DNA of 64,000 nt from the NCBI RefSeq assembly GCF_020966775.1, contig NZ_JAJKFV010000002.1:620001-684000 (forward strand). The letters run 5' to 3'. Every line of letters starts with the position of its first letter. Positions within the stretch are counted from its first letter, which is position 1. The position numbers and the translations under genes were made by a program. The DNA comes from Rhodopirellula halodulae. Lineage in GTDB: Bacteria; Planctomycetota; Planctomycetia; Pirellulales; Pirellulaceae. The notes under the pieces are model-generated. The model was not told where the DNA came from. It made no database searches and was given only the letters and a program-made list of their open reading frames with translations. Of this stretch, positions 645 through 29,359 are shown piece after piece.

Positions 645-1595
645 ATGCTTTCCCGCGTTGCCGAATCCGTTTACTGGATGAGTCGCCAAGTGGAGCGTGC
701 CGAGAACATCGCACGTTTCTTGGAAGTCACATTGAATTTGATCCTTGATCAGCCGGAGAACTTGGTGGACCCATGGAGTCCGCTGGTCCAAGTCACCGCT
801 GATGAGGAATGGTTCGAAGCCAAATATGGCAAACCGGACAGCCGCAACGTGGTTCAGTTCTTGGCGTTTGACGACGAGTACCCGAACTCGATGGTTTCGT
901 GCTTACGAGCCGCCCGCGAAAATGCTCGCGGGGTTCGTGAGACGCTGTCGTCCGAAGCCTTCGAGCAGCTCAATGAGTTTTATCATTTCGTGGGCGAAGC
1001 CTCTGCTGCTGCCGCGATGGATCCGACCAGCCAGTTCTTTGACGATGTGCGTCGACAAACGTTGCTGTGGAGCGGTGTGTTTGCCAGCACGATGGCCCAA
1101 GATCAAGGTTGGCACTTCGCGAATGTGGGGCGGATGCTCGAGCGAGCCGACAAGACTTCCCGAATCTTGGATGTGAAGTATTTCAATCTGCTGCCAAACT
1201 TGGCGGACGTCGGAACGGCGGTGGATGATTTGCAGTGGTCGGCATTGCTGTTGGCGATCAGTGGGTTTGAAGCCTACCGGCGCGATCATCATCAAATCGA
1301 AATCGAAAAGGTGGTGGATTTCTTTTTGTTCAATCGAACCTTCCCCCGGTCGATTCATCACTGCATCGCGTCGGCGGGATGGTCGTTGCGAGAAATTGAA
1401 GAAGCGTCCGAGAGCAATCTTCAACGGACGGCACGTCCCATTTTGGATGAACTGCAGCATCGTTTGGCTCACACGCAAGTCAAAGAAGCCCTCGCGGGCG
1501 GAATGCACCAGTTTGTTGATTCGGTCCAGATCGAAATCAACCAGATTGGTGAAGCACTCGGACAAGACTATTTTCAAACATCGGTGAATTCATGA
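645..1595 (+). CDS. Alpha-E domain protein (DUF403)
   Basis: An all-helical protein of 316 residues beginning MLSRVAESVYWMSRQVERAEN, the characteristic start of the alpha-E family; the open frame extends 18 codons upstream (to 591) but that extension lacks family similarity, so ATG 645 is chosen. A second family motif (GRMLERADKTSRILDVK) lies near residue 165-182. Alpha-E proteins have no established activity but are found almost invariably with circularly permuted ATP-grasp and transglutaminase-like proteins, where they are thought to form a helical partner or docking domain. It sits between those two genes here, and its stop overlaps the next start in an ATGA, suggesting translational coupling. 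Confidence 0.9.
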   Translation: MLSRVAESVYWMSRQVERAENIARFLEVTLNLILDQPENLVDPWSPLVQVTADEEWFEAKYGKPDSRNVVQFLAFDDEYPNSMVSCLRAARENARGVRETLSSEAFEQLNEFYHFVGEASAAAAMDPTSQFFDDVRRQTLLWSGVFASTMAQDQGWHFANVGRMLERADKTSRILDVKYFNLLPNLADVGTAVDDLQWSALLLAISGFEAYRRDHHQIEIEKVVDFFLFNRTFPRSIHHCIASAGWSLREIEEASESNLQRTARPILDELQHRLAHTQVKEALAGGMHQFVDSVQIEINQIGEALGQDYFQTSVNS

Positions 1596-4500
1596 CGATC
1601 CGCGTCGCTCTGCATCACAAGACGTCTTACCACTACGAACGACCCATCGGCGTTGGACCTCAACAAGTTCGGCTGCGTCCGGCCTATCACGGTCGCACGC
1701 CCATCGTCTCGTACAGTTTGACGGTGTCGCCGAAAGATCATTTTTGCAACTGGCAGCAGGACCCGTTTGCCAATCCGGTTGCGCGATTGGTGTTCGAGAA
1801 GCCAACGAACCACTTGACGGTCGCCGTTGATTTGGTCGCCGACATGACGGTGATCAACCCGTTTGAATTCTTCGTGGATGATTCCGCGCAAGAATGGCCG
1901 TTTGAATACGGCGCCGAAACCAAACGGCAATTGGCGAGTTACCTGACACCGGGTGAGTCGTCGCCCAAGTTCATGCAGTGGATTGAAACGCTGCCGAAGA
2001 AGTCCGAACGTATCATCGACTTTTTGGTCGACGTCAATCGAGCGACCCAGGCACGCGTGGATTACAAAATTCGTCTGGAACCCGGCGTGCAAACCCCGGA
2101 AGAAACGCTGACTCTGGGCAGTGGTTCCTGTCGCGATTCCGCGTGGTTGCTGGTCAACGCTTTTCGGCAAATGGGGATGGCGGCGCGATTTGTGTCCGGC
2201 TACCTGATTCAGTTGACAGCGGATCAGGAGTCTTTGGATGGACCCAACGGCCCGGCGGAAGACTTCTGTGATTTGCATGCTTGGACCGAGGTTTACTTGC
2301 CCGGTGCCGGGTGGGTGGGACTCGATCCAACGAGCGGTTTGCTGGCTGGCGAAGGCCACATTCCATTGGCGTGCACGCCCACCTTCACAGATGCGGCACC
2401 CATCATCGGCGGTCATGAACCGTGCGAGGTCGAATTCGCACACGAGATGTCCGTCACGCGGGTGCGTGAAGATCCTCGCGTGACCAAACCCTACGCCGAC
2501 AAGACCTGGAAAGAGATCCTTGACGCCGGTCGAGCCATCGACGAACAGTTGGACCAATCCGATGTGCGTCTGACGATGGGCGGCGAGCCCACGTTCGTTT
2601 CGATCGACAACATGGATGATCCGCAATGGAACACCGATGCGGTGGGCGAAGAGAAACGGGTGCTTAGCAACGTGTTGCTGAATCGCTTGCGAAAGCGTTG
2701 GGCACCGGGCAGTTTGCTGCACTATGGTCAAGGCAAATGGTACCCGGGCGAGTCATTGCCGCGATGGGCGCTGACTTGCATTTGGCGACGTGACGGACAG
2801 CCCATCTGGCATGACGATCAATGGATCGCGGATGAAGGAAAGGACTACGGTCACACACACAAAGACGCGGAACGGTTTGTCAAGTCACTGGCACGAGAAC
2901 TGAATGTCAGCGCGAAGATGACCTTTCCGGTCCACGAGGATGTGTTTCACTATCTTTGGCGAGAAAACCGACTGCCGATTGATGTGGATCCATCGGACCC
3001 GAAACTCGAAGATCCCAACGAACGCGCGATGATGATGCGGACGTTCAATGTTGGTTTGGGTGCACCGGTTGGCTTTGTGTTGCCCATACGACGTGCTTGG
3101 TGGCAAGCTCGACCGGGGTGGATTAGCGGACGTTGGCCTGTCCGAGCTGATCGCGTTTATTTGATCCCGGGTGATTCGCCGATCGGATTGCGTTTGCCTC
3201 TGGATCGTTTGCCAATCTCATCCGCGGTTTCGGCTCCGTTTTACACGGCGCCTTTGGATCCAACCGCACCCCGAGGGCCATTGCCCACGTCGGAGATGCC
3301 GCGTGGGAATGAACAAGACCCGCGTGCGCATCACCGCGAGGATCGCCACGACGAGTCTCGCGAAAAGATCCATCCTCAGGTCTTGGACGAAGAAGACGAC
3401 GATAACTTGCCGACTAGTGAGGACGTGGTGCAAACCGCGCTTTGTGTCGAATGTCGTTATGGCCGATTGCATGTGTTCATGCCGCCGACGCAGCGGATCG
3501 AAGACTACTTGGACTTGATCACGGCGGTGGAACAAACCTGCGTTTCAACCGGTTTGCCCGTCATCATCGAAGGCTATTTGCCACCGCATGATGATCGCGT
3601 GGAACTGTTCAAGGTCACGCCGGATCCAGGTGTGATCGAGGTCAACACGCAACCCACCGCATCGTGGGAGCAGTTGGTGAGTTTGACCGAGTCGCTGTAC
3701 GAGGAGGCTCGCAAGTCCCGATTGGGAACCGACAAGTTTGACTTGGATGGCTATCACACCGGCACCGGTGGCGGAAACCACATCGTGCTCGGGGGACGGG
3801 CTGCCAGCGAAAGCCCGTTTCTGCGACGACCGGATCTGCTCGCCAGCTTCATCCGATTTTGGAACAACCATCCGTCGTTGTCGTATATGTTCAGCAGTCG
3901 GTTCATCGGACCGACCAGCCAGGCACCGCGGATGGATGAAGCTCGCCAAGACGCGTCCTACGAGATGGACATCGCGCTGAGTCAATTGCCTCCCGTTGGC
4001 AATCAAGTTCCGCCGTGGATGGTGGATCGTTTGTTCCGCGACCTAATGGTCGATTTAACGGGGAACACGCACCGCGCCGAAATCTGTGTGGACAAGTTGT
4101 ACTCGCCCGATAGCTCGACGGGACGATTGGGGCTGGTGGAGCTTCGCGGTTTTGAAATGCCACCTCACGAACAAATGAGTTTGGCGCAGTTGCTTCTGAT
4201 TCGTTCCTGTGTCGCGGCGTTTTGGCAACAGCCATACGACCGTCCGCTGCAACATTGGGGCACGCGACTTCACGATCGTTTCTTGCTGCCGCATTTTGCC
4301 TGGCAAGATTTCCGAGAGTTGATTGGCGAATTGAACGCCAAGGGCGCGCCGCTGTCGGCGGATTGGTTCGCTGTGCATCACGAGTTTCGATTCCCGTTGA
4401 TTGGCGAAATGAAACTGGATGGCATGCGATTGGAACTCCGCAGTGCAATCGAACCGTGGTACGTGATGGGTGAAGAACCCGGATCCTCCGGGACCACGCG

Positions 4501-4939
4501 TTTCGTTGATTCTTCACTGGAACGGTTGCAAGTGAAGCTGGATGGTTTCGATCCCGAACAACATGCATTGATGGTGGGCGGTCGTGAAGTGCCACTGCAT
4601 GCGACCGGAGTGGCCGGACAATATGTGGCCGGAATTCGATACCGAGCCTGGCAGCCGCCTCGATGTTTGCACCCAACCATTGGGGTTCACACGCCGTTGC
4701 AATTCGATGTGGTGAATCGGGCGGCTCGTCGATCCGTTGGTGGTTGCACTTACCATACGGTGCACCCGGGCGGATTGGCTCACGAGCGGTTCCCGGTCAA
4801 TCCGAAAGAAGCGGAATCGCGGCGAGCTTCTCGTTTTCGTCCCTTGACGGTCACGGGTGGCGAAGTGGTGTTGCCAGGTTTGTCGCCTCGGGTGGGTTAC
4901 GAACCGTTCCCAATCACGATGGATCTGCGTCGCAATTGA
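1592..4939 (+). CDS. Large transglutaminase-like protein with DUF2126 C-terminal region
   Basis: A protein of 1115 residues. The N-terminal part is a bacterial transglutaminase-like N-domain (MTIRVALHHKTSYHYERP), followed by a papain-fold core with a complete putative triad: Cys180 in GSGSCRDSAW, His229 in LHAWTEVY and Asp245 in GLDPTSG. The rest, roughly residues 300-1110, matches the DUF2126 architecture, with conserved patterns such as LTMGGEPTFVS and GKWYPGE. Family knowledge suggests a peptidase or amide-handling activity rather than true cross-linking. The start overlaps the alpha-E stop by four bases. There is no signal peptide, so it is presumably cytoplasmic. Length and domain order are normal for this family. 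Confidence 0.9.
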   Translation: MTIRVALHHKTSYHYERPIGVGPQQVRLRPAYHGRTPIVSYSLTVSPKDHFCNWQQDPFANPVARLVFEKPTNHLTVAVDLVADMTVINPFEFFVDDSAQEWPFEYGAETKRQLASYLTPGESSPKFMQWIETLPKKSERIIDFLVDVNRATQARVDYKIRLEPGVQTPEETLTLGSGSCRDSAWLLVNAFRQMGMAARFVSGYLIQLTADQESLDGPNGPAEDFCDLHAWTEVYLPGAGWVGLDPTSGLLAGEGHIPLACTPTFTDAAPIIGGHEPCEVEFAHEMSVTRVREDPRVTKPYADKTWKEILDAGRAIDEQLDQSDVRLTMGGEPTFVSIDNMDDPQWNTDAVGEEKRVLSNVLLNRLRKRWAPGSLLHYGQGKWYPGESLPRWALTCIWRRDGQPIWHDDQWIADEGKDYGHTHKDAERFVKSLARELNVSAKMTFPVHEDVFHYLWRENRLPIDVDPSDPKLEDPNERAMMMRTFNVGLGAPVGFVLPIRRAWWQARPGWISGRWPVRADRVYLIPGDSPIGLRLPLDRLPISSAVSAPFYTAPLDPTAPRGPLPTSEMPRGNEQDPRAHHREDRHDESREKIHPQVLDEEDDDNLPTSEDVVQTALCVECRYGRLHVFMPPTQRIEDYLDLITAVEQTCVSTGLPVIIEGYLPPHDDRVELFKVTPDPGVIEVNTQPTASWEQLVSLTESLYEEARKSRLGTDKFDLDGYHTGTGGGNHIVLGGRAASESPFLRRPDLLASFIRFWNNHPSLSYMFSSRFIGPTSQAPRMDEARQDASYEMDIALSQLPPVGNQVPPWMVDRLFRDLMVDLTGNTHRAEICVDKLYSPDSSTGRLGLVELRGFEMPPHEQMSLAQLLLIRSCVAAFWQQPYDRPLQHWGTRLHDRFLLPHFAWQDFRELIGELNAKGAPLSADWFAVHHEFRFPLIGEMKLDGMRLELRSAIEPWYVMGEEPGSSGTTRFVDSSLERLQVKLDGFDPEQHALMVGGREVPLHATGVAGQYVAGIRYRAWQPPRCLHPTIGVHTPLQFDVVNRAARRSVGGCTYHTVHPGGLAHERFPVNPKEAESRRASRFRPLTVTGGEVVLPGLSPRVGYEPFPITMDLRRN

Positions 4940-5068
4940 CGTTTTGCGATGAGAAGAATTCGAAACGCAATCGGGCAACGCATTGTCGGAAAAAGCGGTT
5001 GAATCCTTCCATCGAATTGGGATTCGCCGCAATTGTGCAGGAACGGGTGACTCGTCCGATTCGAGAGG

Positions 5069-7795
5069 ATGGTTACAATTGCGCTTCAAGACTCCACTGC
5101 CACAATGATTGTTGACCGTTTGAGAGATCATCGGGCGACGGTGTTGTCATCCCCGCTCCCATCTCAGAAGAACGTGCCGATAACCACCGCAACCGCCGCA
5201 TCGGATCCTTCGCCGACGCCCCCCACGCCACCGCTATCACTGGCGGATTATGCCGCGAAAGCAAATCGATTCGATGAGTGTCGATCGGCCCAGGGAAGCC
5301 TGCGCACGTGCTGGAAAAGCATCGCGGACGAAGTCGCTAGTCTCGGCCAATCGGGACTGAACGACCGCGAATCGCAAATCGAACAATTGATTCGCGAAAA
5401 TGGTTCCACATTCCAAGTCGACACCGGCGAAGGCACCCAAACTCGGCCATGGCAATTGGCCACCGTGCCCATCGCGATTGCGGAACAAGACTGGGGACGA
5501 TTGGCGTCGGGACTCACACAACGTACCCGCGTGCTCGAAGCGGTGCTGGCGGATTTGTTGGGGCCTCAGCGGTTGCTCCGCGAACGAGTGTTGCCGCCTG
5601 AGCTAGTGTGGGACAACCCCCGGTTCCTGCGGGTCTATCACAACTTGCCCGTGTCGGCGGGACATCGTTTGCACCTGACGGGCTTTGACGTGGCTCGAGC
5701 CAACGATGGTGGGTGGTGGGTCACCGGCGATCGCACACGAGCACCCAGTGGTCTGGGTTATCTGCTGGAAAATCGCATTGTGCACGGCCGGGTGTTTCCG
5801 CATCTGAGCCGGACCGCGAATGTTCGCCGATTGGCGTGTTTCTTTGGAAAGATGCGAAGCCATTTTCGATCGCTTGCTCCGCAGCAGAACAACAACCCTC
5901 GCGTCGCATTGCTGACGCCAGGGCAGGGTAGCTATCGAGACTTCGAAGATGCGTACCTCGCACGTTATCTCGGTTACACGTTGGTGCAGGGTCGCGACTT
6001 GGCCGTTCGCGGCGAACGATTGCACCTGAAGACGTTGGGCGGGTTGCTGCCGATTGAAGTGCTTTGGCGTCACGTGTCGGATCGCAAATGTGACCCGCTC
6101 GAATTGGAACCTCATTCATCCGAAGGCGTCACCGGTTTGCTGCGTTGCAAACGGGGCGGCCAGTTGGCGGTGGTCAATTCCATCGGCAGCGTGATCACGG
6201 AAATGCCGGCCCTGATTCCCTTCTTGCCCGCCGCCGCGAAGTTGTTGTTGGGCGAAAACCTGCAGTTGCCCAGCGTCGCAACTTATTGGTGTGGTGCGGC
6301 AAAAGAACGCCAGTACGTACTGGATCACTTGGATGAATTGGTCGTGCGAGACGCCTTTGCGGTCAATGACACGCGGCCAGTGATTCCCGAGAACTGCACG
6401 GCCGACGAGAAGCACGCGCTGATTCAGCAGATCAAAGCGGAACCCAATCGGTTTGTAGGACAACAACGGCTGTCGCACAGTGTCACACCGGTTTGGCATC
6501 AGGAGCGTTTCGAGCCGTGGCATGTTTCACTGCGGACGTTTGTGTTGCAGACGAACAACAGCGTGGAAGTGCTGCCCGGCGCGTTGGCCCGAGTCAGCCC
6601 CAATGAAGACCTGCTCAGCAATTCGCCGGTGCAAGGCCAGCTTTCGCAAGATTGCTGGATCGTCAGCGAAAAGCCGGTCGACCACGAAACAACGCTTCTG
6701 AAGACAGATCACAGCACGATCGTATTGCGACGAAGCGGTGCTGAATTGCCAAGTCGCGTTGCTGAGCATTTGTTTTGGTTGGGCCGATATGTGGAACGAT
6801 GCGAGTCCATCACGCGTTTGTTGCGAACCACATTGGCAAGATTGGCCGGGGAAGATGACCTCAGTGAATTGCCGGAAATGAGCCGTCTGGTGGCGGCATT
6901 GGCAGCGGTCGGTCAGTTGGAACCGGACTACGTGATCGAGGGTCTCGACGGAGCGATGCCGCAATTGGATTCGGTGCTACCGTCCAGTGTGTTGGATACC
7001 AGCCATCCTCGTGCGTTGCAGTCCGCCATTCTCAGCTCGCTCAGCAACGCCACGGCGGTGCGAGATCGGATTTCGCTGGATGCTTATCGAATTTTCCAAA
7101 GCGTGCATGCCGATCTTGCGGGAACGAAACGCAACGTCACTCCCAATGTTTCGCGAGCACTGGAACGACTCAACCGCTTGATCACTCATCTCTTGGCGTT
7201 CAGCGGTTTGACGGCTGAAAGTTTGACTCGCACCCATGGTTGGCGATTCTTGTTGCTGGGTCGTCGCTTGGAACGCGCCGATCAGACGGCGGAATTGCTG
7301 CTGGCAACCATGACGCGTCCCATCGCGGATGAAGTGGGCATGTGCGAGGCGATCTTGGATGCCACCGATAGTTTGATGACCTACCGTTCGCGGTATCTGT
7401 CGCTGCTGCGTCCGGCTCCGACGATCGACTTGCTGGTGACGGACGAGACCAATCCGCGATCGTTGCGATTTCAACTGAATGACATTCAACAGTTGTTGTA
7501 TGATCTGCCGACAGATCCCGGTCGGGTCGCGTTGGGTGCCGATGAACGTTTGGCTCGTGAGCTTCAGCATCCGTTGCTGATCGCGGATGTCGCCACGCTG
7601 ACCGAAGTCAACAGTTCCGGAAAACGAGCTCAGTTGCAACAGTTGTTGGAATTGGTGCAGGAAAAGATCCCATTGCTCGCCAATGCGATTGCGGGCAGGT
7701 ATTTGATTCACACCGCACCGGAACAAACGTTGACGGGCGATCGAGAACAAACGCTCGATGAACCTCTTTTGCCACCGGATGAATCACAAGGTTGA
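5069..7795 (+). CDS. Circularly permuted ATP-grasp / alpha-E fusion protein
   Basis: A protein of 908 residues: an ATP-grasp region at about 75-545 and an alpha-E region at about 558-870 beginning RVAEHLFWLGRYVERCES. The fusion places in one chain what is encoded separately at 2-1595. In the ATP-grasp half the DHLDELVV motif is kept, but it is followed by RDAFAVND rather than K...GGYG, so the glycine-rich loop of the first copy is absent; other fused members of the family also have a different loop, so this may be a subtype rather than decay. The start is uncertain: ATG 5069 has GAGAGG directly against it, and ATG 5105 is an alternative. A transglutaminase gene follows five bases after the stop. 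Confidence 0.88.
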   Translation: MVTIALQDSTATMIVDRLRDHRATVLSSPLPSQKNVPITTATAASDPSPTPPTPPLSLADYAAKANRFDECRSAQGSLRTCWKSIADEVASLGQSGLNDRESQIEQLIRENGSTFQVDTGEGTQTRPWQLATVPIAIAEQDWGRLASGLTQRTRVLEAVLADLLGPQRLLRERVLPPELVWDNPRFLRVYHNLPVSAGHRLHLTGFDVARANDGGWWVTGDRTRAPSGLGYLLENRIVHGRVFPHLSRTANVRRLACFFGKMRSHFRSLAPQQNNNPRVALLTPGQGSYRDFEDAYLARYLGYTLVQGRDLAVRGERLHLKTLGGLLPIEVLWRHVSDRKCDPLELEPHSSEGVTGLLRCKRGGQLAVVNSIGSVITEMPALIPFLPAAAKLLLGENLQLPSVATYWCGAAKERQYVLDHLDELVVRDAFAVNDTRPVIPENCTADEKHALIQQIKAEPNRFVGQQRLSHSVTPVWHQERFEPWHVSLRTFVLQTNNSVEVLPGALARVSPNEDLLSNSPVQGQLSQDCWIVSEKPVDHETTLLKTDHSTIVLRRSGAELPSRVAEHLFWLGRYVERCESITRLLRTTLARLAGEDDLSELPEMSRLVAALAAVGQLEPDYVIEGLDGAMPQLDSVLPSSVLDTSHPRALQSAILSSLSNATAVRDRISLDAYRIFQSVHADLAGTKRNVTPNVSRALERLNRLITHLLAFSGLTAESLTRTHGWRFLLLGRRLERADQTAELLLATMTRPIADEVGMCEAILDATDSLMTYRSRYLSLLRPAPTIDLLVTDETNPRSLRFQLNDIQQLLYDLPTDPGRVALGADERLARELQHPLLIADVATLTEVNSSGKRAQLQQLLELVQEKIPLLANAIAGRYLIHTAPEQTLTGDREQTLDEPLLPPDESQG

Positions 7796-7800
7796 TTCTC

Positions 7801-8724
7801 ATGACGCGATCGGTCCTTTACGACATTGTGCATGAAACCAGGTATGACTACACCGAGCCGGTGGCGGTGTGTTTGAACCAACTTCGCATGAGGCCTCAAA
7901 CGAGATTGCCTTGGGTCGAATGCGAACGTTGTTCGGTGGTCATCGATCCGGTTCCCGCCAAGATCGACATGCATCCGGACTACTTTGGCAACATGGTGGA
8001 TTCGTTTGCGATCGAATCCCCACATGAGTCGTTGACGGTCAAGGTTTCAAGCCGCGTCAAAGTCACGGAAACGCATCCCTTCGAGGCTCAATCAATTCCT
8101 TCGTTGCAGCAGGTCATTGAATCGGTTCGCTTGGGTTCGAGCGATGCGGATTTGTCCGCGAAAGAGTATGTGTTTGCTTCCCCGCGAATTTCTTTGGACT
8201 CGCAATTTGCAGACTACGCTCGCGACGCGATGCAAGGATGCACGTCGGTGTTGGACGCGGTCGATCAACTGACAAAGCGTATCCACGATGACTTTCAATA
8301 CGATTCCACCGCGACAGATGTGACGACCACGACGGAAGATGCCTTCGAAATGAAAGCGGGTGTGTGTCAGGACTTCTCTCACGTGCAGTTGGCGTGTTTG
8401 CGAAGTTTGGGAGTGCCGGCACGCTACGTCAGTGGCTATTTGCGAACGTTACCGCCTCCCGGAAAACCGCGACTGATTGGCAACGATGAATCGCACGCAT
8501 GGATCAGCGTTTACGCTGGTGCACAGTTGGGGTGGGTGGACTTTGATCCGACGAACGCCTGCCAAACAGGACTCGACCACATTCCGGTTTGCATCGGGCG
8601 TGATTACGACGACATCAGTCCGATGCGTGGGATCGTTTTGGGTGGCGGCACGACCACCTTGTCCGTTCGCGTGGACGTTGCCCCGGTCGAGTCCGAGGCT
8701 GCCGCCGAAGCGATCACCGAGTGA
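7801..8724 (+). CDS. Transglutaminase-like cysteine protease family protein
   Basis: A protein of 307 residues with a transglutaminase N-domain (VLYDIVHETRYDYTEPV) and a core holding Cys189 in AGVCQDFSHV, His232 in ESHAWISV and Asp249 in DFDPTN, a complete putative triad. ATG 7801 is preferred to the TTG at 7792, because it begins at the conserved N-domain and lies just after the upstream stop. It closes the second ATP-grasp/alpha-E/transglutaminase set. Compared with the 1592 protein it lacks the DUF2126 extension, so the two enzymes probably act on different products or steps. Confidence 0.9.
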   Translation: MTRSVLYDIVHETRYDYTEPVAVCLNQLRMRPQTRLPWVECERCSVVIDPVPAKIDMHPDYFGNMVDSFAIESPHESLTVKVSSRVKVTETHPFEAQSIPSLQQVIESVRLGSSDADLSAKEYVFASPRISLDSQFADYARDAMQGCTSVLDAVDQLTKRIHDDFQYDSTATDVTTTTEDAFEMKAGVCQDFSHVQLACLRSLGVPARYVSGYLRTLPPPGKPRLIGNDESHAWISVYAGAQLGWVDFDPTNACQTGLDHIPVCIGRDYDDISPMRGIVLGGGTTTLSVRVDVAPVESEAAAEAITE

Positions 8725-8844
8725 CACCGCGGCGAGACCGGTTTCATCTTGGTACGAAACGCTTTCATCGTGGCTAGCAGTCCCCTGCTACACTGTTGGG
8801 TCGTTCGCAGTTTGCCTTGCGTCACTCAATGACCGGATCCCACC

Positions 8845-10185
8845 ATGAGTTCTTTTTCTCGACGAAACGCCCTGCGGGCCGCGGGAATTTCGATTGGCCT
8901 TCCAACCTTTGCCTCGCTGCCTAAACGTTCGGTGGGTGCATCCGAAACTGGCGCCTCGATCAGTGACGGTCCGAAGACTCAAAAGCGACGGATGGTCTGC
9001 ATCGGCAACATGTTGGGTTTCTACCCAGGTGCCTTTTGGCCGTCGACTTCAACGGAAGACGCGGGGCCTGATGCAAACCGCCTGAGCAAAGGCTTGGTAG
9101 AGCGAGCAACGATTCCGTTTGGCCAATCGAGTCGATCGTTGTCGCAGATCTCAAACCAAATGACACTCGTGTCGGGTTTGGATCACGGGCTGAAAGGTGG
9201 ACACTTCGCGATCCACGCATTTCTGTCAGGTGTTCGCCAAGTCGATGCACACACGATGCCGATGGCCAACATCACCGTCGATCAATTCGCGGCGCAATCG
9301 ATTCCGGGTGTCACACGATTTCCAGCCTTGACCATTGGTAGCGAATCGGGCATCCACGGCGGTTGCCAACTCTCATGGACTCGCAGCGGAACGCGCGTTC
9401 CACCGATCCCGGGACCACAACAACTGTTCGAGACACTGTTTGTGGGTACCGATCCAAAGAAGAAACAAGCGGCGGCGGAACAAATCGGTCTGCAGAATTC
9501 CATTCTCGATGTCGTTCTGGGAAATGCGAAGGATCTGAAACGCCAACTCAACTCACAGGACCAACAAAAACTTGAGGAGTATCTGACGTCGGTCCGTGAC
9601 GTCGAGCAACGATTGAAGCTGCGTCGAAATTGGATTGACGTTCCCAAACCGAAGGCACCTTTTGCTGCCCCGCGGAATCGAAACATGGTGGAGGATCTGC
9701 CGCTGCTCTACGATCTAATCGTGCTGGCTTTGCAGACTGATTCGACGCGGATTGCCACGCTCGAAATCGGTGGCGACTTCAATCCAAACGACCTCGGTAT
9801 CCAAGGTGGATATCACGCTTTGTCACACCATGGACAGCGGCAGGAAAACATCGACAAACTGATCGCCATCGAAAGCTACCAAGTCGAGCAATATGTCCGC
9901 TTCATTCAGAAGCTCGACGAAACCTTCGATGAGAATGGATCGTTGTTGGATCAAACGGCGGTGCTGTTCGGCAGTGGGATGGGCAATGCCAACTCGCACA
10001 CCAATTCCAATTTGCCAATCGTGGTGGCCGGTGGTGGAGGGCGACATGGTCGATGGTTGGACTTTGATGAGCGTGCGTCGGATCGACCTCCGCTCACCAA
10101 CTTGTTTGTGTCGATGCTGCAAGAGTTCGGCGTTGAAACGGATCAATTTGCCAACAGCACCGGAACGTTGCGAGGTTGGGCATGA
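8845..10185 (+). CDS. DUF1552 family protein with Tat-type signal
   Basis: A protein of 446 residues starting MSSFSRRNALRAAGISIG, a twin-arginine signal-like N-terminus, then a DUF1552 body (for example FGSGMGNANSHTNSNLP near residue 375). It overlaps the next gene by four bases (ATGA at 10182). DUF1552 and DUF1592 proteins occur as pairs in large numbers in planctomycetes; DUF1552 resembles secreted hydrolase/sulfatase-like alkaline phosphatase folds, but no reaction has been established. Export in a folded state is inferred from the Tat motif. Confidence 0.9.
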   Translation: MSSFSRRNALRAAGISIGLPTFASLPKRSVGASETGASISDGPKTQKRRMVCIGNMLGFYPGAFWPSTSTEDAGPDANRLSKGLVERATIPFGQSSRSLSQISNQMTLVSGLDHGLKGGHFAIHAFLSGVRQVDAHTMPMANITVDQFAAQSIPGVTRFPALTIGSESGIHGGCQLSWTRSGTRVPPIPGPQQLFETLFVGTDPKKKQAAAEQIGLQNSILDVVLGNAKDLKRQLNSQDQQKLEEYLTSVRDVEQRLKLRRNWIDVPKPKAPFAAPRNRNMVEDLPLLYDLIVLALQTDSTRIATLEIGGDFNPNDLGIQGGYHALSHHGQRQENIDKLIAIESYQVEQYVRFIQKLDETFDENGSLLDQTAVLFGSGMGNANSHTNSNLPIVVAGGGGRHGRWLDFDERASDRPPLTNLFVSMLQEFGVETDQFANSTGTLRGWA

Positions 10186-18050: not shown

Positions 18051-21000
18051 GTGATCGCCCACACCGAGGGTGACGCCGAATTGATTCGTTCGGGATTGCA
18101 TCGCTTGTCCATCGCTTCTTCCCCCCCAACTTCCGTTTCCCAACCACCACGATCCAGCAGCAAGGATTCGCGGCGCGGAGCGGCGACCGGGAAATCGAAT
18201 TTCGACGCGTTGATTCAAGAGCGAATCGACGAGGCTCGCGGTGCGCTTTGGCGGGCCGAGTTGACTCGACAAGTCTTGCTGGGCGTCATGGTCGGCATGG
18301 CCGCTCTGCTGGCGTGGGTGATCATGGACCACTGGATTTGGTCGCCTGGCAATTGGGGGCGTGCCATCGCCGCGCTGCTGGGTTTGGTCGCGTTGGGATT
18401 GCACATTCAACGTTCGGTTTGGCCGGTGCTTCGATCGTCGGTGCGAGCGGACTACGCCGCGCGAGCCTTGGAACGCGACCATCCGGAACTGGGCCACGCT
18501 CTTTCCAGTTACATCGCACTGAAACAACAGAACACCGATCGATCCGCCTCCAAAGGACAACTTTCCACGCGAGTGGTCCAGTCGATTGGGGCTTCCACCG
18601 CAGCCAAGCTTCGTTCGATTGATGCCTTGCCCGAAGAGGCCACCGGGTTGCTGCGTTGGTGGATTGCCACCATCGCGTTGTTGGCGGTGCTAGCCATTTA
18701 CGCTTTGGCATCGCCGAAAAACTCGCTGCAATCCGCCGTTCGTTTGATGGCTCCCGCGGCCGACATTCGACCACCGAACCGAGTTCAAATCTTTGACGTG
18801 CAGCCCGGTGATGCGGAAGTCTTGGCCGGCCGTTCGGTCGATGTCTCCGTGAAGGTCAAAGGCTTGAAAGACGACGAGCCGGTGCAATTCCGATGGCTCG
18901 ATCAAATCGCCGGTGCGATGGAGGGACTTGGCAGTGATTCGTTGTCCAGCGATCAAGTGGTGGAACTGCAACGCGATGAAGCAGCCTCCGGTGCATCGGC
19001 GACCACGTTTGTCGTTTCCGTTCCGGTATCGCATCAATCCACCGGCGTTCAGCGATACGAAATCGTGGCCGGTGATTCGGTGGCCGGACCGTTTGAATGG
19101 AAGATTCGCGACACGCCTGTGGTGAGTGTGACGGAGGTTCAGTATCAACCACCGGCGTACACCGGAGAAACCAAACGGGTTCGTCGCAGCGGTTCCATTC
19201 GTGGTGTGGATGGAACCCGCGTCACGTTGCGTGCCAAGGTCAATCGATCGGTGGCTCGCGCCGTTGTCGAGTTCAACCCCAAGCCGATGGGCCAAGAGAT
19301 TCGTGCCACCGCCGGCGTTCGCGAGATGGATCGATCCAGCGACGGTCGCTCGTTGGATTTGACGTTTGATCTTCGCAGTGGCAAAGCAGCCACACGCGCG
19401 GTTGAACTGGAAAGCTATCGTATTCGTGTCTGGGACGATGCCGAGCAAACCAACTCGGAACCGATCGTCTACCCGATCGAGGTGATTCGGGATCTGCCGC
19501 CGGAGATCACCATTGTTGTGCCTCGCAAGTCGCCCAAGCCGGTGCCGATGGATGCTCAACAGTTGTTTGAGATTCACGCCACCGATGTCGATTACGGTTT
19601 GTCAGAAATCGAAGTGGAGATTCGACGCGGCATCGACCTGATCGCCCGGGCAACGTTGTGGAAGAACGCCGAGGGTGCCAAGGGTAACCAGATCGCCGAG
19701 TATCGTTTCCGTCCTTCGCGAATGATCATCGCCGGTGCGGGGCGAAGGAGCGGGCGATCGTCGCGGTTGATGGTGGGCGATGAAGTGGAGGTCGTTGCCA
19801 TCGCGACCGACAACCGACGTGATCCAGACAATCCTGGAATCGAACCCGGAGTGACACGGACCGAACCGGTTCGTCTGCAAATCGTCGCGGGTCGTGAACC
19901 CAATGAACAAACTCCTGAAGAACAGGACGACAATGATGGTCAAACGCCCGACGATGGGTCCACCGGCGAAGGCAGCGAATCCGGAGCCGACGGTCAATCC
20001 GGTGGCTCGGGCGGCAGCGGTGAAAGCAGCGAATCACAAGATGCCGGCCAGAACGGTGAAGGCCAAAGCGGCAGCGGCCAGTCGGATTCGGAGTCGACCG
20101 GAGAAAATCAAAGCGGTGACGGGTCAGGCGATTCACAGGGCAACCAGGATCCGGACGATTCGTCCAACGAAGGTGCCTCCGACGGCGAAGGAACCAGCGG
20201 TGACTCATCGGGGATGAACTCGCAGGCAGAGGACTCGCAAGGCGACGGTTCGGACAACTCCACCGAACCCGGTGAAGCTGGTGACAACGCGGGCGGGAAA
20301 GCGTCTGGCTCCGAGGCCGCCTCCAACAGCGAAGGCGGTTCAAATCCTGAAGGATCCGATCCGAGCGGCAACCAACAGCCCGCGAACGATTCCGGATCGT
20401 CCGAGTCTGAAGGTGGCAACGCGCAGTCCAGCAACAACGGGGAAGGCACGGAATCGGGTTCCAACAACTCCGATCGCGGAAACTCTCGCGATGGCGACGC
20501 TGGCCAAGGTGATTCGGCTAGTAGTAAGTCCAGCCAAGGAGACTCGGGCGGCAGCAAGTCCGCGCCGCAGGACGATGCCGAGGCGTTCGAACGCATTCGC
20601 GAATACTTGGAAGAGCAAGATAAACGGTCCGGGGCGAGCGAGGGTGGCGAGGGACAAGACAGCGATTCCTCACAACAAGGAGCTTCCGAGCAAGGTTCTT
20701 CTGGCCAGAATTCGCCGGAACAAAATTCTTCGGATCAAAATTCGAGCGGGCAGAACTCATCGCAGGAAGGATCTGATTCGCAAGGCGGTGCCGGTGGGGA
20801 GGAGTCCAACGCCGGATCATCTGACCAGCAAGACGGAACCAACTCGGGCGATGAATCCGGACAGTCTGGATCGTCGGACTCGGAAGGGGGCAATTCCGAA
20901 GCAGGTTCGTCTTCGGAGGGTTCAGATTCGGGCAAGCCTTCTGGCGACGGAGACTCCGATGGCAAACAAACATCGGGCGAGGAGGGATCTTCTGGCGATC

Positions 21001-21719
21001 AAACGTCGAGTGATCCATCCCGCGGGTCTGAGCCAGGCGAATCGAACTCGGGACAATCCAGTCAAGACTCGTCCGATGGTGCGGGTTCCTCGCAAACTCA
21101 ATCCGATGGCTCGTCTGGCAATTCAAACGAAACGTCTGCTTCTGAAAACGAAGCCGGCCAGGAATCCGCCAGTCAAAATTCACCCGCGGGCGGATCCGAG
21201 CAACCAGGCGATCGCTCCGAAGGAATGAACGCATCCGAGTCAAACTCTCAATCAGGAGAGTCGTCGAGCTTCAATGGTGATAGCAACGCCGCCGGCGATC
21301 AAAATGGTGGCAATGAATCCGGTGGCGAGGTGCCCAAGGCGGATCCCGCGGATTTGGAATACACCAAACAAGCCACCGACATGGTGCTCGATTACCTGGA
21401 TGAAACGCGGCAGGATCCAGACCCCGATTTGCTGGAACGTTTGAAGTGGAGTCAGGATGATCTCAAGCGGTTCCGTGATCGTTGGCAAAACGTCAAACCG
21501 ATTGATTCGTCCGATCCCAAAGCGGCGGTGGATCCGTCCGAACTGGAGGAGGCTCTGCGGAGCTTGGGCATGCGTGCACCCAACACCATGCGTTCGCAAT
21601 CCGCCCCGCGTCCTCAAGATGGCATGCGAGGATTGCGCGACAGTGGCAATCGACGTCAAGCTCCCGCCGCCGTTCGCGATGCCTTTGAAGCGTTCCGACG
21701 CAACTTGGGTTCGCAGTGA
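18051..21719 (+). CDS. Giant DUF4175-like membrane protein with long acidic Ser/Gly-rich region
   Basis: A protein of up to 1222 residues. Hydrophobic segments lie near residues 73-95 (VMVGMAALLAWVIMDHW), 100-118 and 203-222 (WWIATIALLAVLAIYALA), resembling the N-terminal membrane pair of DUF4175. Residues about 240-610 look like beta-rich extracytoplasmic repeats (VVSVTEVQYQPPAYTGE). Residues about 615-1096 are low complexity, dominated by Ser, Gly, Asp, Glu, Asn and Gln, with one ordered island (AFERIREYLEEQDK, about 843). A helical C-terminus (DLEYTKQATDMVLDYLDE) follows. The GTG start at 18051 has a poor ribosome site; TTG 18081 is an alternative. Function is unknown; in planctomycetes such proteins occur near MoxR/DUF58 genes, not seen here. 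Confidence 0.75.
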   Translation: MIAHTEGDAELIRSGLHRLSIASSPPTSVSQPPRSSSKDSRRGAATGKSNFDALIQERIDEARGALWRAELTRQVLLGVMVGMAALLAWVIMDHWIWSPGNWGRAIAALLGLVALGLHIQRSVWPVLRSSVRADYAARALERDHPELGHALSSYIALKQQNTDRSASKGQLSTRVVQSIGASTAAKLRSIDALPEEATGLLRWWIATIALLAVLAIYALASPKNSLQSAVRLMAPAADIRPPNRVQIFDVQPGDAEVLAGRSVDVSVKVKGLKDDEPVQFRWLDQIAGAMEGLGSDSLSSDQVVELQRDEAASGASATTFVVSVPVSHQSTGVQRYEIVAGDSVAGPFEWKIRDTPVVSVTEVQYQPPAYTGETKRVRRSGSIRGVDGTRVTLRAKVNRSVARAVVEFNPKPMGQEIRATAGVREMDRSSDGRSLDLTFDLRSGKAATRAVELESYRIRVWDDAEQTNSEPIVYPIEVIRDLPPEITIVVPRKSPKPVPMDAQQLFEIHATDVDYGLSEIEVEIRRGIDLIARATLWKNAEGAKGNQIAEYRFRPSRMIIAGAGRRSGRSSRLMVGDEVEVVAIATDNRRDPDNPGIEPGVTRTEPVRLQIVAGREPNEQTPEEQDDNDGQTPDDGSTGEGSESGADGQSGGSGGSGESSESQDAGQNGEGQSGSGQSDSESTGENQSGDGSGDSQGNQDPDDSSNEGASDGEGTSGDSSGMNSQAEDSQGDGSDNSTEPGEAGDNAGGKASGSEAASNSEGGSNPEGSDPSGNQQPANDSGSSESEGGNAQSSNNGEGTESGSNNSDRGNSRDGDAGQGDSASSKSSQGDSGGSKSAPQDDAEAFERIREYLEEQDKRSGASEGGEGQDSDSSQQGASEQGSSGQNSPEQNSSDQNSSGQNSSQEGSDSQGGAGGEESNAGSSDQQDGTNSGDESGQSGSSDSEGGNSEAGSSSEGSDSGKPSGDGDSDGKQTSGEEGSSGDQTSSDPSRGSEPGESNSGQSSQDSSDGAGSSQTQSDGSSGNSNETSASENEAGQESASQNSPAGGSEQPGDRSEGMNASESNSQSGESSSFNGDSNAAGDQNGGNESGGEVPKADPADLEYTKQATDMVLDYLDETRQDPDPDLLERLKWSQDDLKRFRDRWQNVKPIDSSDPKAAVDPSELEEALRSLGMRAPNTMRSQSAPRPQDGMRGLRDSGNRRQAPAAVRDAFEAFRRNLGSQ

Positions 21720-24346: not shown

Positions 24347-27300
24347 TTATCGCTGGGCGGGGCGATCGCTGAACGCGGAAAGGTCGCCAGGTAGCACTTT
24401 GAACGTGGGCATGGAGAGGATTTCCATGGTCTTCAGTCGCATCGTCGCATGTCCGACTTCCAGGTTGATGCCGGGTTTGCCGAGGGCGGTGGTTTGCATC
24501 AAACGGGCGGGGCGGGTTGGTGCCCCGAACACCGTGAACAGGTCTTTCGCGGCGGCGTAGCCACAACGATCCGCGGTGACCGTGTAAGCCGATTTGTCGG
24601 TGCGAGTACGGAACAGAACCCCGCCCGCCGCTTCGATCTCCCACGCCGTGGTCGTCACACCCATCGTGCGTTGTTGAAACGGGACACTGGGGTCGACCGC
24701 GATTCGAAGCGTGTCGCAATCGATGGTGGATTCGCCCTGCGACAGCAAATCCATTTGAGTGGCATCCATTCGGGTTTCGAAGTCGGGCAGTGTTTGCTGG
24801 GCGACTCGGACACCCCGCCGAAAGGTCAGGGTCTTGGCCAGCAAGTCGCCTTGCATGGATTCCTGGAAGATCAAATGCACGCCCATGATGGTCGGTTCGG
24901 TCGACTCGTTTTGCCCGCCCGCATTCGTGTCTTCGATCATGTCGGGGTTCCAAGCCGCGGCTTTCGTGTTCGTGCCAGAACTGGCGGCGACGGTGCTCGA
25001 AACCGGTTTGGATGGGGCAAGTAAGCCGCCTCCCTTTGTGTTGCGAATCCAAGCTCGGTAGGAGCCCGGTCCGGGCGCGATGATCGCCCCCGATGCACCC
25101 TCGGACGTGGAAACGGGCGTGGCACCATTCGCATCCGCCACGGGCGAATTGGGAACCCAAGCCAAACGTGAGGTTTGCAAGTGATGACGTGATTCACGGA
25201 TTCCATCGCGAGCGAACTGGTCGACGGTCAATTCGACGGGTTGCGATCCGGTTTGGACCAACGCGATCTCGGCGATGCCGGCTTTCTTAAAACTGTCGGG
25301 CGTTCGCAAATGGATGGCATCGGTGAGGGTCCATTTCAATTGGTCCCCACGCATCTGAATTTCGTTGGTGGTTTCGCCTTGGGTGATGACTGTGTCCAAG
25401 ACCACACCGCCGGCCAAGGTCGCGACTTTGCCGTCAAAGGTCATCGAACCACCGAAACGACATCGTGGTTGTCGAGACCAACGAGCGGAGGATTGGGTGG
25501 GATTGCCAGAGGCCACCGAAAGAGCCGGCAGCATGTGCGACGGCAGAACAAACTGTCCCGCGTCGTTGACCCACACAAAGTTGTCTTCCGGGCGGACCTG
25601 AATCTGCGGGCCAATGAAGAAACCGTCACCCATTTGCAAACGAGCCGGAACACCAGCGGTGCCGGTCAATTCCATCACATCGCCAACGCCGCCGTCTCGG
25701 AATCGCAGCTTTTCTCCCGTCAAAGTCGCCAGCATCGTTGTGGGTGATGACGAACTCGGAGGTTTTGCCGGGTTGGCTGGACGCATCTTCATCGGATGAG
25801 TCACTTCCACACCGCCGGTGACGCTAAGGTCCGTGGCGGTCAATTCGCCGCCGCCCATCGTCAGCGTGGCCGCGACCATGTCACCGCGAATCGTTGCGGG
25901 ATGCTCGGGAACCGAGGGGTCGCGATTGTTGATGGAAGACTGCGAAGATTGGGGCTGACGGACCCATTTTCGAATTGGATCGTTGGTTTGCGCCGAAACC
26001 TTGTTGGGCGAATGGGACGCTTGTTCAAAGAACAAATGCATCCGGTTGGTGCTCGCTCGCAACGACGGCGAGTTGATTTGCACGTTGCCCAAGGCCGCCA
26101 GCGTCTTTGGCATCCATTCGCGGTTCAACGAATCATCGTCGGAGTCAGTCGGTCTCGTTGCCGCGTCGGTTTTGGTCGCGGGTTGCAGAAGGCCTTCAAC
26201 GCGATCGGCGAGGAACGATCCACCATCGGCCAACACGGCTCGCAGTTGGCCTTCGCACCACACGCTGAAGTCGACTTGCAGTTCGTCCGGTGTGGCGACG
26301 CCTTGTGGTTCGATCTGCAAATCGTTTTGCCAGCTAAACGATCGCATGGCGGAGTCGGCTGCGTGGTGGAACACTCGCCCGGGGCCTTCCACACTGATCG
26401 TTCCGAGCTGTTTGGGAGCCGACGGATTGAAGCGGTAGCGAATCTGCGACAAGAACGCTTCCAATTCGCCTCGTTGAAGCCGAACAAAGTCGTTCTGTGG
26501 CTGGTGGGTGGGTGCTTGTCCGGGGGCGTCCAGCACGGACAGTGGGTCCGCGATCAACCAGCCTTCGACTGGATCAAACACGATCCGGCCGGCGGTCATC
26601 CCGAACATTTGCGAGCGGATTTCCATCTGCACGGGTGACCCGGTGGCTTCCACGCGATCGATCCAGTCCATCGCCGTGTCGCGACGGAGTTTGGAATTCA
26701 GCGGGTCCCGAAGCGTCATGACCAACGAGTCGCAACGAAAACGGTCGATCCAATTGTCGCTCGGAGGCGTGATTTGATTGGTGGTCGCCGAGGCGGCGGG
26801 CGGCAAGCGAAGCAGTTCGACGTCTTGGTTGAGGCTGAGTTGATCCAACGCAAAGTCGTACTGGATCATGTTCCCACAACGAACTTCCACCACGCCTTTG
26901 GGTTCGTCTTGAGATGGATCGTTGGGATCGTCCAGCGGCAGCGAAAGTTTTTGCAGATAGACCAATTCCATTCGGTCCAACGTTCCGGTCACATCATTGG
27001 ATCGACCGGCGGAAGACGCTGACGCGGCCAGGTGCAATGTCAGCACACGGCCGATCATCGTCGCGCGACCGACTTGCATATGAATCGGATCATTCGTCCA
27101 GATCGTACGGCGATCGATGCCGACGTTGGACGTGCGAATGTGCAGCACGGAATCCGTCGCGGTCATCGGATCGGGTGGCTCGGACGAGATGCCCTGGACT
27201 TGGTAGGCCGACGCGAGCTTTGCGGCTTCACCGGTCGGTTGCGTTGAACGTTGAATGATCACATCCCCACGAAGCTGGCCTCGTTCAATCGACGGGGCCA

Positions 27301-27697
27301 CGCCGCTCATGACGTCCAACGGAGCGTCGAATTTGATCAACGCACCCTCGGATGCGCTGATCAGGATCGGTTCTTTCGACCCGGCTTCGTTCAAGCCGCG
27401 ACCGATGACGATCGTGATGGGTTTCAGTTCCCAGGTTTGGCCATCCTTTTGCTTGCAGTCTTTGCAAAGCAACATCCCATCGTCCGTTTTCAAACGAATG
27501 GTTCGGCCGCGTTGCCAATCCGTGTCGGCAAACAGGTCGTCCAAGTTGCCATCGCCGCCACTCATCTTGGGCGGTGATACCGGCGCAGCGACGATTTCGG
27601 GCGGGGTCAACCACGCCGCCACGGTCACTTGATAAAGACCGGCCATTGCTACTAACGCGCACAAACCGATCAGGTAGTCGCGCAGTTGCGTCAGCAT
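24347..27697 (-). CDS. Giant LptC/LptA-like (OstA-type) envelope protein
   Basis: A protein of 1116 residues with an N-terminal membrane anchor (DYLIGLCALVAMAGLYQVTVAAWL) and a long beta-rich body. Several segments fit LptC/LptA logic: an LptC-like block near residue 205 (SNVGIDRRTIWTNDPIHMQ), repeated phrases of the type LTATDLSVTGGVEV, VATLAGGVVLDT and, near the C-terminus, WEIEAAGGVLFRTRTD and YTVTADRCGYAAAKDLF. A CxxC pair (LLCKDCKQ) lies near residue 73. The start is set at ATG 27697, overlapping the kdsC stop by seven bases; a GTG nine codons earlier is possible. Gene order kpsF-kdsC-this gene matches kdsD-kdsC-lptC. Role in lipopolysaccharide or glycolipid transport is inferred; lptB is not in the window. 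Confidence 0.65.
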   Translation of the reverse strand: MLTQLRDYLIGLCALVAMAGLYQVTVAAWLTPPEIVAAPVSPPKMSGGDGNLDDLFADTDWQRGRTIRLKTDDGMLLCKDCKQKDGQTWELKPITIVIGRGLNEAGSKEPILISASEGALIKFDAPLDVMSGVAPSIERGQLRGDVIIQRSTQPTGEAAKLASAYQVQGISSEPPDPMTATDSVLHIRTSNVGIDRRTIWTNDPIHMQVGRATMIGRVLTLHLAASASSAGRSNDVTGTLDRMELVYLQKLSLPLDDPNDPSQDEPKGVVEVRCGNMIQYDFALDQLSLNQDVELLRLPPAASATTNQITPPSDNWIDRFRCDSLVMTLRDPLNSKLRRDTAMDWIDRVEATGSPVQMEIRSQMFGMTAGRIVFDPVEGWLIADPLSVLDAPGQAPTHQPQNDFVRLQRGELEAFLSQIRYRFNPSAPKQLGTISVEGPGRVFHHAADSAMRSFSWQNDLQIEPQGVATPDELQVDFSVWCEGQLRAVLADGGSFLADRVEGLLQPATKTDAATRPTDSDDDSLNREWMPKTLAALGNVQINSPSLRASTNRMHLFFEQASHSPNKVSAQTNDPIRKWVRQPQSSQSSINNRDPSVPEHPATIRGDMVAATLTMGGGELTATDLSVTGGVEVTHPMKMRPANPAKPPSSSSPTTMLATLTGEKLRFRDGGVGDVMELTGTAGVPARLQMGDGFFIGPQIQVRPEDNFVWVNDAGQFVLPSHMLPALSVASGNPTQSSARWSRQPRCRFGGSMTFDGKVATLAGGVVLDTVITQGETTNEIQMRGDQLKWTLTDAIHLRTPDSFKKAGIAEIALVQTGSQPVELTVDQFARDGIRESRHHLQTSRLAWVPNSPVADANGATPVSTSEGASGAIIAPGPGSYRAWIRNTKGGGLLAPSKPVSSTVAASSGTNTKAAAWNPDMIEDTNAGGQNESTEPTIMGVHLIFQESMQGDLLAKTLTFRRGVRVAQQTLPDFETRMDATQMDLLSQGESTIDCDTLRIAVDPSVPFQQRTMGVTTTAWEIEAAGGVLFRTRTDKSAYTVTADRCGYAAAKDLFTVFGAPTRPARLMQTTALGKPGINLEVGHATMRLKTMEILSMPTFKVLPGDLSAFSDRPAQR

Positions 27698-28233
27698 GGA
27701 GGCTCTTTCGAGACGGACGGCCACCGATCGGCGGCTCGCATCAATCGTTCAATCAATTCGCGAACCGCACCGGTTCCGCCGGGCAATCGTGTGATCCAGT
27801 GAGCGGCTTCTCGGGCGTCGATGGACGCATCATCCGGGGCCGCGGCCAATGCCACTCGATGCATGACCGCGATGTCGGGAACATCGTCGCCGATGTAGCA
27901 AACTTGTTCGGGGGTGACACCCATCGCGGACATCATCTCCGTCGCGGTTGCCCACTTGTCGCTGGAATTTTGCACCACGTGATGGATGCCCAATTCTTTG
28001 GCTCGTCGTGACAGGGCATCGCTGTGACGCGCGGTGATGATGCCGAAGTGCAGCCCCGCGTTCATCCAAGCTTTGATGCCATAGCCATCGCGAACGTGAA
28101 AGGTTTTGGTTTCGGCTCCGGTGGAGTCGTAGTACAGCTTGCCATCACTCAACACGCCATCCACGTCCGACAAAATGCATTGGATTTTGCCGGCGACTTC
28201 ACGATCCGAGAACAAGGCATGACGGGCGGACAA
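27691..28233 (-). CDS. kdsC: 3-deoxy-D-manno-octulosonate 8-phosphate phosphatase (KdsC family HAD)
   Basis: A protein of 180 residues with the HAD nucleophile motif LSDVDGVLSDG, HVRDGYGIK, ITARHSDAL, the KdsC-specific NSSDKW, GDDVPD for Mg2+ and the terminal LPGGTGAVREL. It would remove phosphate from Kdo-8-phosphate. The start is taken as TTG 28233, which has a strong AGGAG six bases upstream and begins one base after the kpsF stop; this gives the usual family length, whereas longer starts run back into kpsF without similarity. It overlaps the next gene by seven bases. Confidence 0.9.
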   Translation of the reverse strand: MSARHALFSDREVAGKIQCILSDVDGVLSDGKLYYDSTGAETKTFHVRDGYGIKAWMNAGLHFGIITARHSDALSRRAKELGIHHVVQNSSDKWATATEMMSAMGVTPEQVCYIGDDVPDIAVMHRVALAAAPDDASIDAREAAHWITRLPGGTGAVRELIERLMRAADRWPSVSKEPPC

Positions 28234-28234
28234 A

Positions 28235-29359
28235 TCAGTCTCCTGAGGTGATGGGGATGCAGCGTGGGCCGTCATCGTTTGGGTTGCTTGTGGTGCTTGG
28301 CGTTTCGGTGCGATCTGTATTGGTCGCTTGGCGAACATCGCCGGTGGCTACCAAGTCCGTGATGTCGATCATTCCAATCGGGCGTTGATCTTCGTCCACG
28401 ACAGGCAACTCGCTGATCTTTCGTTGCGACAACAGTTCGACCGCACGTGGCAACCGTTCGGTCTCCGCGACACAAACCGGGCTCTCGGTCATGAAGTTTT
28501 CGATGGGCTCGTCCAAGCTGGTCTCTTGGCGTCGTTGCAACAGTCGAGCGAGATCGCTGTCGGTGAAGATGCCGGACAATCGTTGTTGATCGTCCAGCAA
28601 CAAGATGGCCCCGCTACGTCGGCCGGAACCCCCAATCATCATCGCTTCACGAATCGTGATGGTCTGCGGTGCGACTCGGCATTCCGAGATCGGCCGCATG
28701 GCTTGTCGCACGTCGGTCAATTTGCGACCCAGTGCACCGCCGGGATGGAAACGAGCGAAGTCGTCTGGCGTGAATCCACACAAACGCGAAGCCAAGATGG
28801 CGATCGCGTCGCCCACCGCCAACATCACGGAGGTGGAACAGGTGGGAGCCAAACCATCGGGACAGGCTTCACGATGTCGGCCAATCGGAACGACATGGTC
28901 CGCAAGATCCGCCAACGGATTTTCGCGATCCGCCGTGACGGCGATGATGCCGCAGGCTTGTGACTTCAGGTACTCGACCACGCGAAGGACTTCTTCGCTG
29001 CGGCCGGAATTCGAAAAGGCGATGACCAGGTCTTTGGCTTGCACTCGACCGAGGTCACCGTGCACCGCTTCGATCGGATGCAGGAAGTGAGCCGGCGAAC
29101 CGGTGCTAGCCAACGTCGCGACCAACTTCTGTGCGATCAGTCCGGCTTTGCCCACGCCGGTCAGCACGATCGAACCTTCGCAGCGACTGATCCACGCCGC
29201 GGCTTCGGCGGCATCGGACGAGGCGATGGTGGCGGCTTTCTGAATCGCGTCGGCTTCCCGCACCATGGTCTCGCGGACCAGACGGATTTGTTCCAAAGGC
29301 GAGAGGGGCGTTAACGTCGGGATGGACCCGCCGTGTGTGGGTTGAGGTCGTGGAGCCAC
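28235..29359 (-). CDS. kdsD: D-arabinose 5-phosphate isomerase (KpsF/GutQ/KdsD family)
   Basis: A protein of 374 residues: SIS domain (IVLTGVGKAGLIAQKL, then HGDLG and FSNSGRSEEV) followed by two CBS domains (about 230-350). It should interconvert ribulose 5-phosphate and arabinose 5-phosphate, the first step towards Kdo. GTG 29359 is chosen because AAGGA stands seven bases upstream; the frame is open further back but that stretch is not conserved. It is the first gene of the kdsD-kdsC-LptC/A-like run. A perfect hairpin lies 19 bases upstream of the start. Confidence 0.93.
   Translation of the reverse strand: MAPRPQPTHGGSIPTLTPLSPLEQIRLVRETMVREADAIQKAATIASSDAAEAAAWISRCEGSIVLTGVGKAGLIAQKLVATLASTGSPAHFLHPIEAVHGDLGRVQAKDLVIAFSNSGRSEEVLRVVEYLKSQACGIIAVTADRENPLADLADHVVPIGRHREACPDGLAPTCSTSVMLAVGDAIAILASRLCGFTPDDFARFHPGGALGRKLTDVRQAMRPISECRVAPQTITIREAMMIGGSGRRSGAILLLDDQQRLSGIFTDSDLARLLQRRQETSLDEPIENFMTESPVCVAETERLPRAVELLSQRKISELPVVDEDQRPIGMIDITDLVATGDVRQATNTDRTETPSTTSNPNDDGPRCIPITSGD

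Follow-up and report, generated by a model that had tools for sequence, protein, structure and literature searches.

The window considered here, meaning the whole stretch of DNA that was analyzed, comprises 64,000 nucleotides from Rhodopirellula halodulae (assembly GCF_020966775.1, contig NZ_JAJKFV010000002.1, positions 620,001 to 684,000 of the forward strand). Its main subject is a giant open reading frame (ORF) that follows the genes kdsD and kdsC. The three ORFs are all on the minus strand, overlap and form one operon, with the following coordinates in the window:

24347–27697, minus strand: giant LptC-(LptA)n-like protein, 1116 amino acids from an ATG at 27697
24347–27724, minus strand: longest reading of the giant ORF, 1125 amino acids from a GTG at 27724
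27691–28338 (ORF limits), minus strand: kdsC, 3-deoxy-D-manno-octulosonate 8-phosphate (Kdo-8-phosphate) phosphatase, NCBIfam TIGR01670
28235–29488 (ORF limits), minus strand: kdsD, arabinose-5-phosphate isomerase, NCBIfam TIGR00393

The kdsC product matched TIGR01670 with an E-value of 5.9e-43 (146.5 bits, above the cut-off of 106.95), and the kdsD product matched TIGR00393 at 2e-75 (253.8 bits, above the cut-off of 203.7). A Pfam scan of the latter revealed SIS and two CBS stretches. These curated models, together with the overlap of the same-strand ORFs, confirm the order kdsD–kdsC–giant proposed in the initial annotation, and the length given there for the giant, about 1116 residues, was reproduced by reading from the ATG at 27697. 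This ATG overlaps the kdsC stop codon in the sequence ATGCTGA, the 1116-residue reading contains no internal stop, and the ATG is the likelier start than the GTG at 27724. Position 29359, previously taken as the end of kdsD, is a GTG in the kdsD frame. As had also been stated, lptB is not adjacent: the lptB of this genome is on contig C29 and the window is on C2.

The giant ORF is not a chance frame and is conserved in the family and the class. At E ≤ 0.001, matches to the giant were found in 125 of the 149 genomes of the same family, while a family-level profile of 31 rows, referred to in the following as A1, had matches at this threshold in 106 of the 198 genomes examined in the class. The sole named close relative found was Rhodopirellula europaea, with 79% identity in the best segment. 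A sample of 66 giant ORFs, one per genome and including that of the window, ranged from 865 to 1209 amino acids (median 1063), the shortest ones ending at contig or locus ends. Five of these, with fewer than 450 bases upstream, were excluded from the count of upstream genes. Among the remaining 61, kdsC is upstream on the same strand in 55 (counting L025, whose kdsC is partial and lies at the locus edge), and kdsD is directly upstream in six (L073, L075, L076, L077, L079 and L084), with no significant kdsC match in the examined stretch.

Hydropathy and profile comparison by hhalign yielded the following map of the giant, in which the slices are those of A2, a class-level alignment of 67 rows:

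27611–27685, minus strand: N-terminal membrane anchor, about residues 14–38 of the 1125-residue reading (hydropathy)
26900–27547, minus strand: LptC-like domain, about residues 60–275, containing SNVGIDRRTIWTNDPIHM (slice 40–275)
26387–26833, minus strand: LptA-like unit 1, residues 298–446 (slice 276–470)
25997–26227, minus strand: LptA-like unit 2, residues 500–576, borders uncertain (slice 440–620)
25529–25858, minus strand: LptA-like unit 3, residues 623–732 (slice 610–760)
25007–25378, minus strand: LptA-like unit 4, residues 783–906 (slice 750–930)
24392–24811, minus strand: LptA-like unit 5, residues 972–1111, containing WEIEAAGGVLFRTRTD (slice 930–1125)

The N-terminal anchor, which had been predicted earlier, is borne out by a 19-residue hydropathy window of 1.98 starting at residue 18, the only strongly hydrophobic window in the protein; the best value past residue 60 was 1.11. 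Among 66 giants of at least 900 amino acids, with start codons picked by script, a hydropathy of 1.6 was reached within the first 140 residues in 49 and not in the other 17.

The borders of the slices were fixed after a first comparison pass, which was treated as circular because five rows of the LptA alignment used in it were giants of the same class. Once the same-class rows had been removed from the OstA/LptA profile, leaving 45 rows, all five matches persisted. In single pairwise comparisons, as distinct from a database search, slices 276–470, 440–620, 610–760, 750–930 and 930–1125 matched this profile with probabilities of 98.6, 95.2, 96.4, 96.2 and 98.7%, respectively, and reversed slices, used as controls, gave 2.2% at most. 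For slice 40–275, the probability was 78.9% (E-value 1.6e-5; 0.1% when reversed) against the LptC domain of the f58-type fused proteins described below and 22.7% against the OstA profile. With A1 alone, the five slices in the same order gave 95.1, 79.0, 86.8, 1.6 and 97.0% against OstA. Homology of this kind supports the LptC/LptA-like blocks noticed at the outset, with the N-terminal part matching LptC more weakly than the five slices match OstA.

In Pfam, the connection emerged through relatives of the window protein. The 31 members of A1 matched six families, each in one member only, the best being LptC (E-value 0.014) and LptD_N/LptA (0.018), neither of which is significant. When 36 distant class members were scanned and matches were counted at E-values up to 10, LptD_N/LptA was found in 26 (best 1.2e-13) and LptC in 10 (best 0.0038), and every other listed family occurred once. 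Nine distant members were scanned singly: six were over the LptD_N cut-off, one was below it and two had no LptD_N match. In the Pfam check suggested in the initial annotation, the window protein itself matched neither LptC nor LptD_N/LptA.

Relatives elsewhere in the phylum appear, from their predicted domains, to carry the same kind of fusion with differing copy numbers. A search with PF03968 gave matches in 60 of 294 phylum genomes. In family f58, which is probably the anammox group (f1 probably being the Pirellulaceae), 15 ORFs of 652–677 amino acids each have three LptA-type units by a home-made profile, and the two that were scanned against Pfam, L125 and L126, have an LptC domain over the cut-off as well. 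L125 (667 amino acids, three LptD_N stretches) passes both NCBI equivalog models, TIGR03002 for LptA (82.2 bits, cut-off 71.7) and TIGR04409 for LptC (70.5 bits, cut-off 38) in one chain, and is situated about 0.5 kb after the kdsC of a kdsD–kdsC pair. L127 (796 amino acids) combines LptC with four LptD_N stretches and scores above the equivalog cut-off for LptC but narrowly under that for LptA (71.4 vs. 71.7 bits). Other long OstA-type ORFs, of 925–1215 amino acids, had one to four units at a domain E-value below 0.05, with none listed for L138. Wider flanks were examined for 19 long OstA-type ORFs of the phylum (L125–L143), and in 14 of them a same-strand kdsC precedes the ORF (L125–L129, L131, L134–L139, L141 and L142). 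In L137, the ORF that overlaps the end of the giant (giant 1400–4246, next ORF 4084–6510) matches the Pfam LptD family PF04453 at 6e-14, and in L136 the ORF after the giant (giant 6506–10150, next ORF 4120–6522) matches LptD at 0.0038, below the cut-off. The gene order at these two loci reads kdsD–kdsC–LptC/A–LptD, the last gene being LptD in L137 and LptD-like in L136.

A beta-rich fold is suggested by the alternation of hydrophobic residues, which over A2 gave a z-score of +6.6 at the strand period and −5.4 at the helix period. The strand-period moment was also informative for A1 (z +5.6) and for the window protein alone (z +3.0). By block, it was weak for residues 60–275 (z 1.1) and 2.1–3.9 for the later blocks. 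The same measure was uninformative for 17 fused relatives (z 0.8) and for E. coli LptA (1.2) and LptC (0.8) taken alone, and strand and helix could not be told apart by Chou–Fasman fractions.

A survey of the remaining transport genes, also proposed in the initial annotation, located LptB, two LptF/LptG-family genes and an LptD-like ORF in the genome. LptB (G000:C29:2461320-2462021) scored 321.9 bits against a cut-off of 240. In flanking regions, lptB was looked for with ATP-binding cassette (ABC) transporter motif patterns. Two genes were over the Pfam cut-off for the LptF/LptG family; the one tested fitted best with TIGR04407 (LptF), yet reached the equivalog cut-off of neither LptF nor LptG. 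Neither PF04453 nor PF19838 matched an LptD in the genome, but these searches are insensitive, since they recovered only 2 and 3 of 14 controls, respectively. The LptD-like ORF (G000:C29:1318668-1320737; 1093 amino acids counted from the first start codon) was found by tblastn with an E-value of 5.4e-20, using as a query L124, a sequence from another member of the phylum that matches PF04453 over the cut-off.

Passages of PMC3422733 refer to earlier work in which a pathway for lipid A was described for R. baltica SH1, and genes for lipid A and Kdo for further planctomycetes; the same paper reports LptD in R. baltica, and its main text does not mention LptA or LptC. In section 3.4 of PMC8871954, Planctomycetes serve to exemplify a large reduction of the Lpt and Tol-Pal systems, and a part of PMC10542722 lists separate LptA and LptC genes for verrucomicrobial methanotrophs. 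The giant family would provide an LptC and an LptA, concealed by size and divergence.

Our preferred reading, to which we assign a probability of roughly 0.8, is that the giant would serve as a single-chain LptC-(LptA)5 bridge from LptB2FG to LptD. Anchored in the inner membrane by its N-terminal helix, the giant would sit beside the LptB2FG extractor, from which its first beta domain would receive lipopolysaccharide (LPS), in the role of LptC. LPS would then slide along the chained LptA-like units, which would constitute one covalent periplasmic bridge replacing the LptA oligomer, and would be passed from the end of the chain to LptD, the outer-membrane barrel. The suggestion made at the outset, that a single chain stands in for LptC and several copies of LptA, is supported by homology. 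From this we infer that the chain would reach LptD and carry LPS with no need for a free LptA.

The giant shares with LptC (YrbK; PF06835, TIGR04409) the proteobacterial kdsD–kdsC–lptC gene order found in E. coli, a single N-terminal anchor and, probably, an LptC-like first domain; however, E. coli LptC has 191 amino acids, whereas the giant runs on for about 850 residues of LptA-type units. OstA-type units like LptA (YhbN; PF03968, TIGR03002) are detectable in each of its five slices, and the LptA equivalog model recognizes one f58 relative above its cut-off. In E. coli, LptA is a separate protein of 185 amino acids, while the copies in the giant are covalently joined and membrane anchored. 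The OstA-type domain family is also common to the giant and the N-terminal domain of LptD (PF03968/PF04453), but the giant has no match to the LptD barrel, and the genome has a separate LptD-like ORF.

Several observations weigh against this interpretation. The window protein had no match in Pfam, NCBIfam or the Protein Data Bank (PDB), and the A1 profile had none in the PDB. Unit 4 and the LptC part escape detection with A1 alone (1.6 and 1.4%, respectively) and therefore rest on the deeper alignment A2. Single E. coli sequences gave 30.6% (LptA) and 1.5% (LptC) against A2, although this test is insensitive, because E. coli LptC fails even against the f58 LptC domain (1.0%). No A1 match was found in 92 of the 198 class genomes, for which divergence may account, and no kdsC match was found beside five of the 19 long OstA-type phylum ORFs (L130, L132, L133, L140 and L143). 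Pfam gave no match for the LptD-like ORF, whose identification rests on the tblastn result. No separate LptA was found in the genome with PF03968 or with the OstA profile A5, profiles that miss the giant too; the single match to A5, at an E-value of 0.68, contains a stop. AlphaFold2 models, with the window protein and one R. europaea homologue as the only input, were uninformative (mean pLDDT, the predicted local distance difference test, 26.0 at full length and 26.6 for the C-terminal unit). Since these models give no structure to rely on, it is from homology that we infer one continuous groove, presumably formed by the stacked units.

The most serious alternative regards the giant as an extended LptC that depends on separate, very divergent LptA subunits for a complete bridge, with the fused units adding only length. 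Because PF03968 and A5 miss even the giant, an equally divergent free LptA could escape detection, and LptA-sized OstA proteins do occur in some phylum genomes (L110, 175 amino acids; L117, 207; L108, 225). In the 15 f58 genomes, however, in which the profiles perform well, all listed matches are in the fused chain of 652–677 amino acids or in ORFs of 921–973 amino acids, with no LptA-sized ORF among them, and one of the latter (L124) matches the Pfam LptD family. Furthermore, a search of the 198 class genomes with PF06835 (E ≤ 0.001) turned up no separate LptC, although the giants are equally invisible to this profile. We consider an extended LptC unlikely.

The giant might also be a bridge for other lipids, merely descended from LptA and LptC. 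TamB and AsmA are in concept long single-chain beta-groove bridges, like the one proposed here, but they belong to another family, and no AsmA/TamB family was among the matches listed. The tie to LPS consists of homology and gene order only, and a general lipid bridge is conceivable in planctomycetes, in which the periplasm can be greatly enlarged, as stated in passages of PMC5394234. On the other hand, the position in the Kdo operon recurs across the class and phylum, LptD follows the giant in L137, and LptB, LptF/LptG-family and LptD-like genes are present in the genome. This makes a role outside LPS transport improbable. Finally, an unrelated beta-rich envelope protein, located behind kdsC by chance, would fit with the missing database matches of the window protein itself, but is largely refuted by the distant members that are over the curated LptD_N/LptA cut-off and by the five slices that match OstA with clean reversed controls.

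As a single-chain Lpt bridge, the giant might act as a molecular ruler of fixed length, consisting of LptC and a clade-dependent number of LptA units (three, four or about five), free LptA being absent; we propose this tentatively, at slightly less than even odds. If so, the number of units would set the permitted membrane spacing at LPS delivery sites, and delivery would be confined to close-contact zones of the widely invaginated inner membrane. Because the periplasm can be so enlarged, a long bridge would be plausible, and so would one of fixed length placed at contact zones. LptA is described in passages of PMC10094684 as forming oligomers, and the number of copies per bridge is stated there to be unknown. 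With the copies fused and their number varying by clade, this question becomes directly testable, and the giant would offer structural studies of the bridge a naturally occurring single chain. Among the listed matches in the open-licence literature, as far as the accessible passages go, no description of a natural LptC–LptA fusion or of tandem LptA was found.

Some further features were observed in the phylum and in the window. Smaller OstA/LptA-like ORFs of 175–385 amino acids are present in some phylum genomes (L108, L110, L117 and L119), and in L119 an LptB-like ORF overlaps and follows the smaller OstA/LptA-like ORF. In L086, the ORF of lptB overlaps a gene at its end, and the latter by eye resembles one for a signal peptidase-type protein (ORFs 1297–2307 and 2304–3695). 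Within the window, positions 18051–21719 (plus strand) encode a protein of 1222 amino acids with a very long low-complexity stretch rich in Ser, Gly, Asp, Glu, Asn and Gln, which had no Pfam match at E ≤ 0.001. Positions 1592–7795 (plus strand) encode a fusion of a transglutaminase with a DUF2126 putative amidoligase and, after it, a circularly permuted ATP-grasp/Alpha-E protein.

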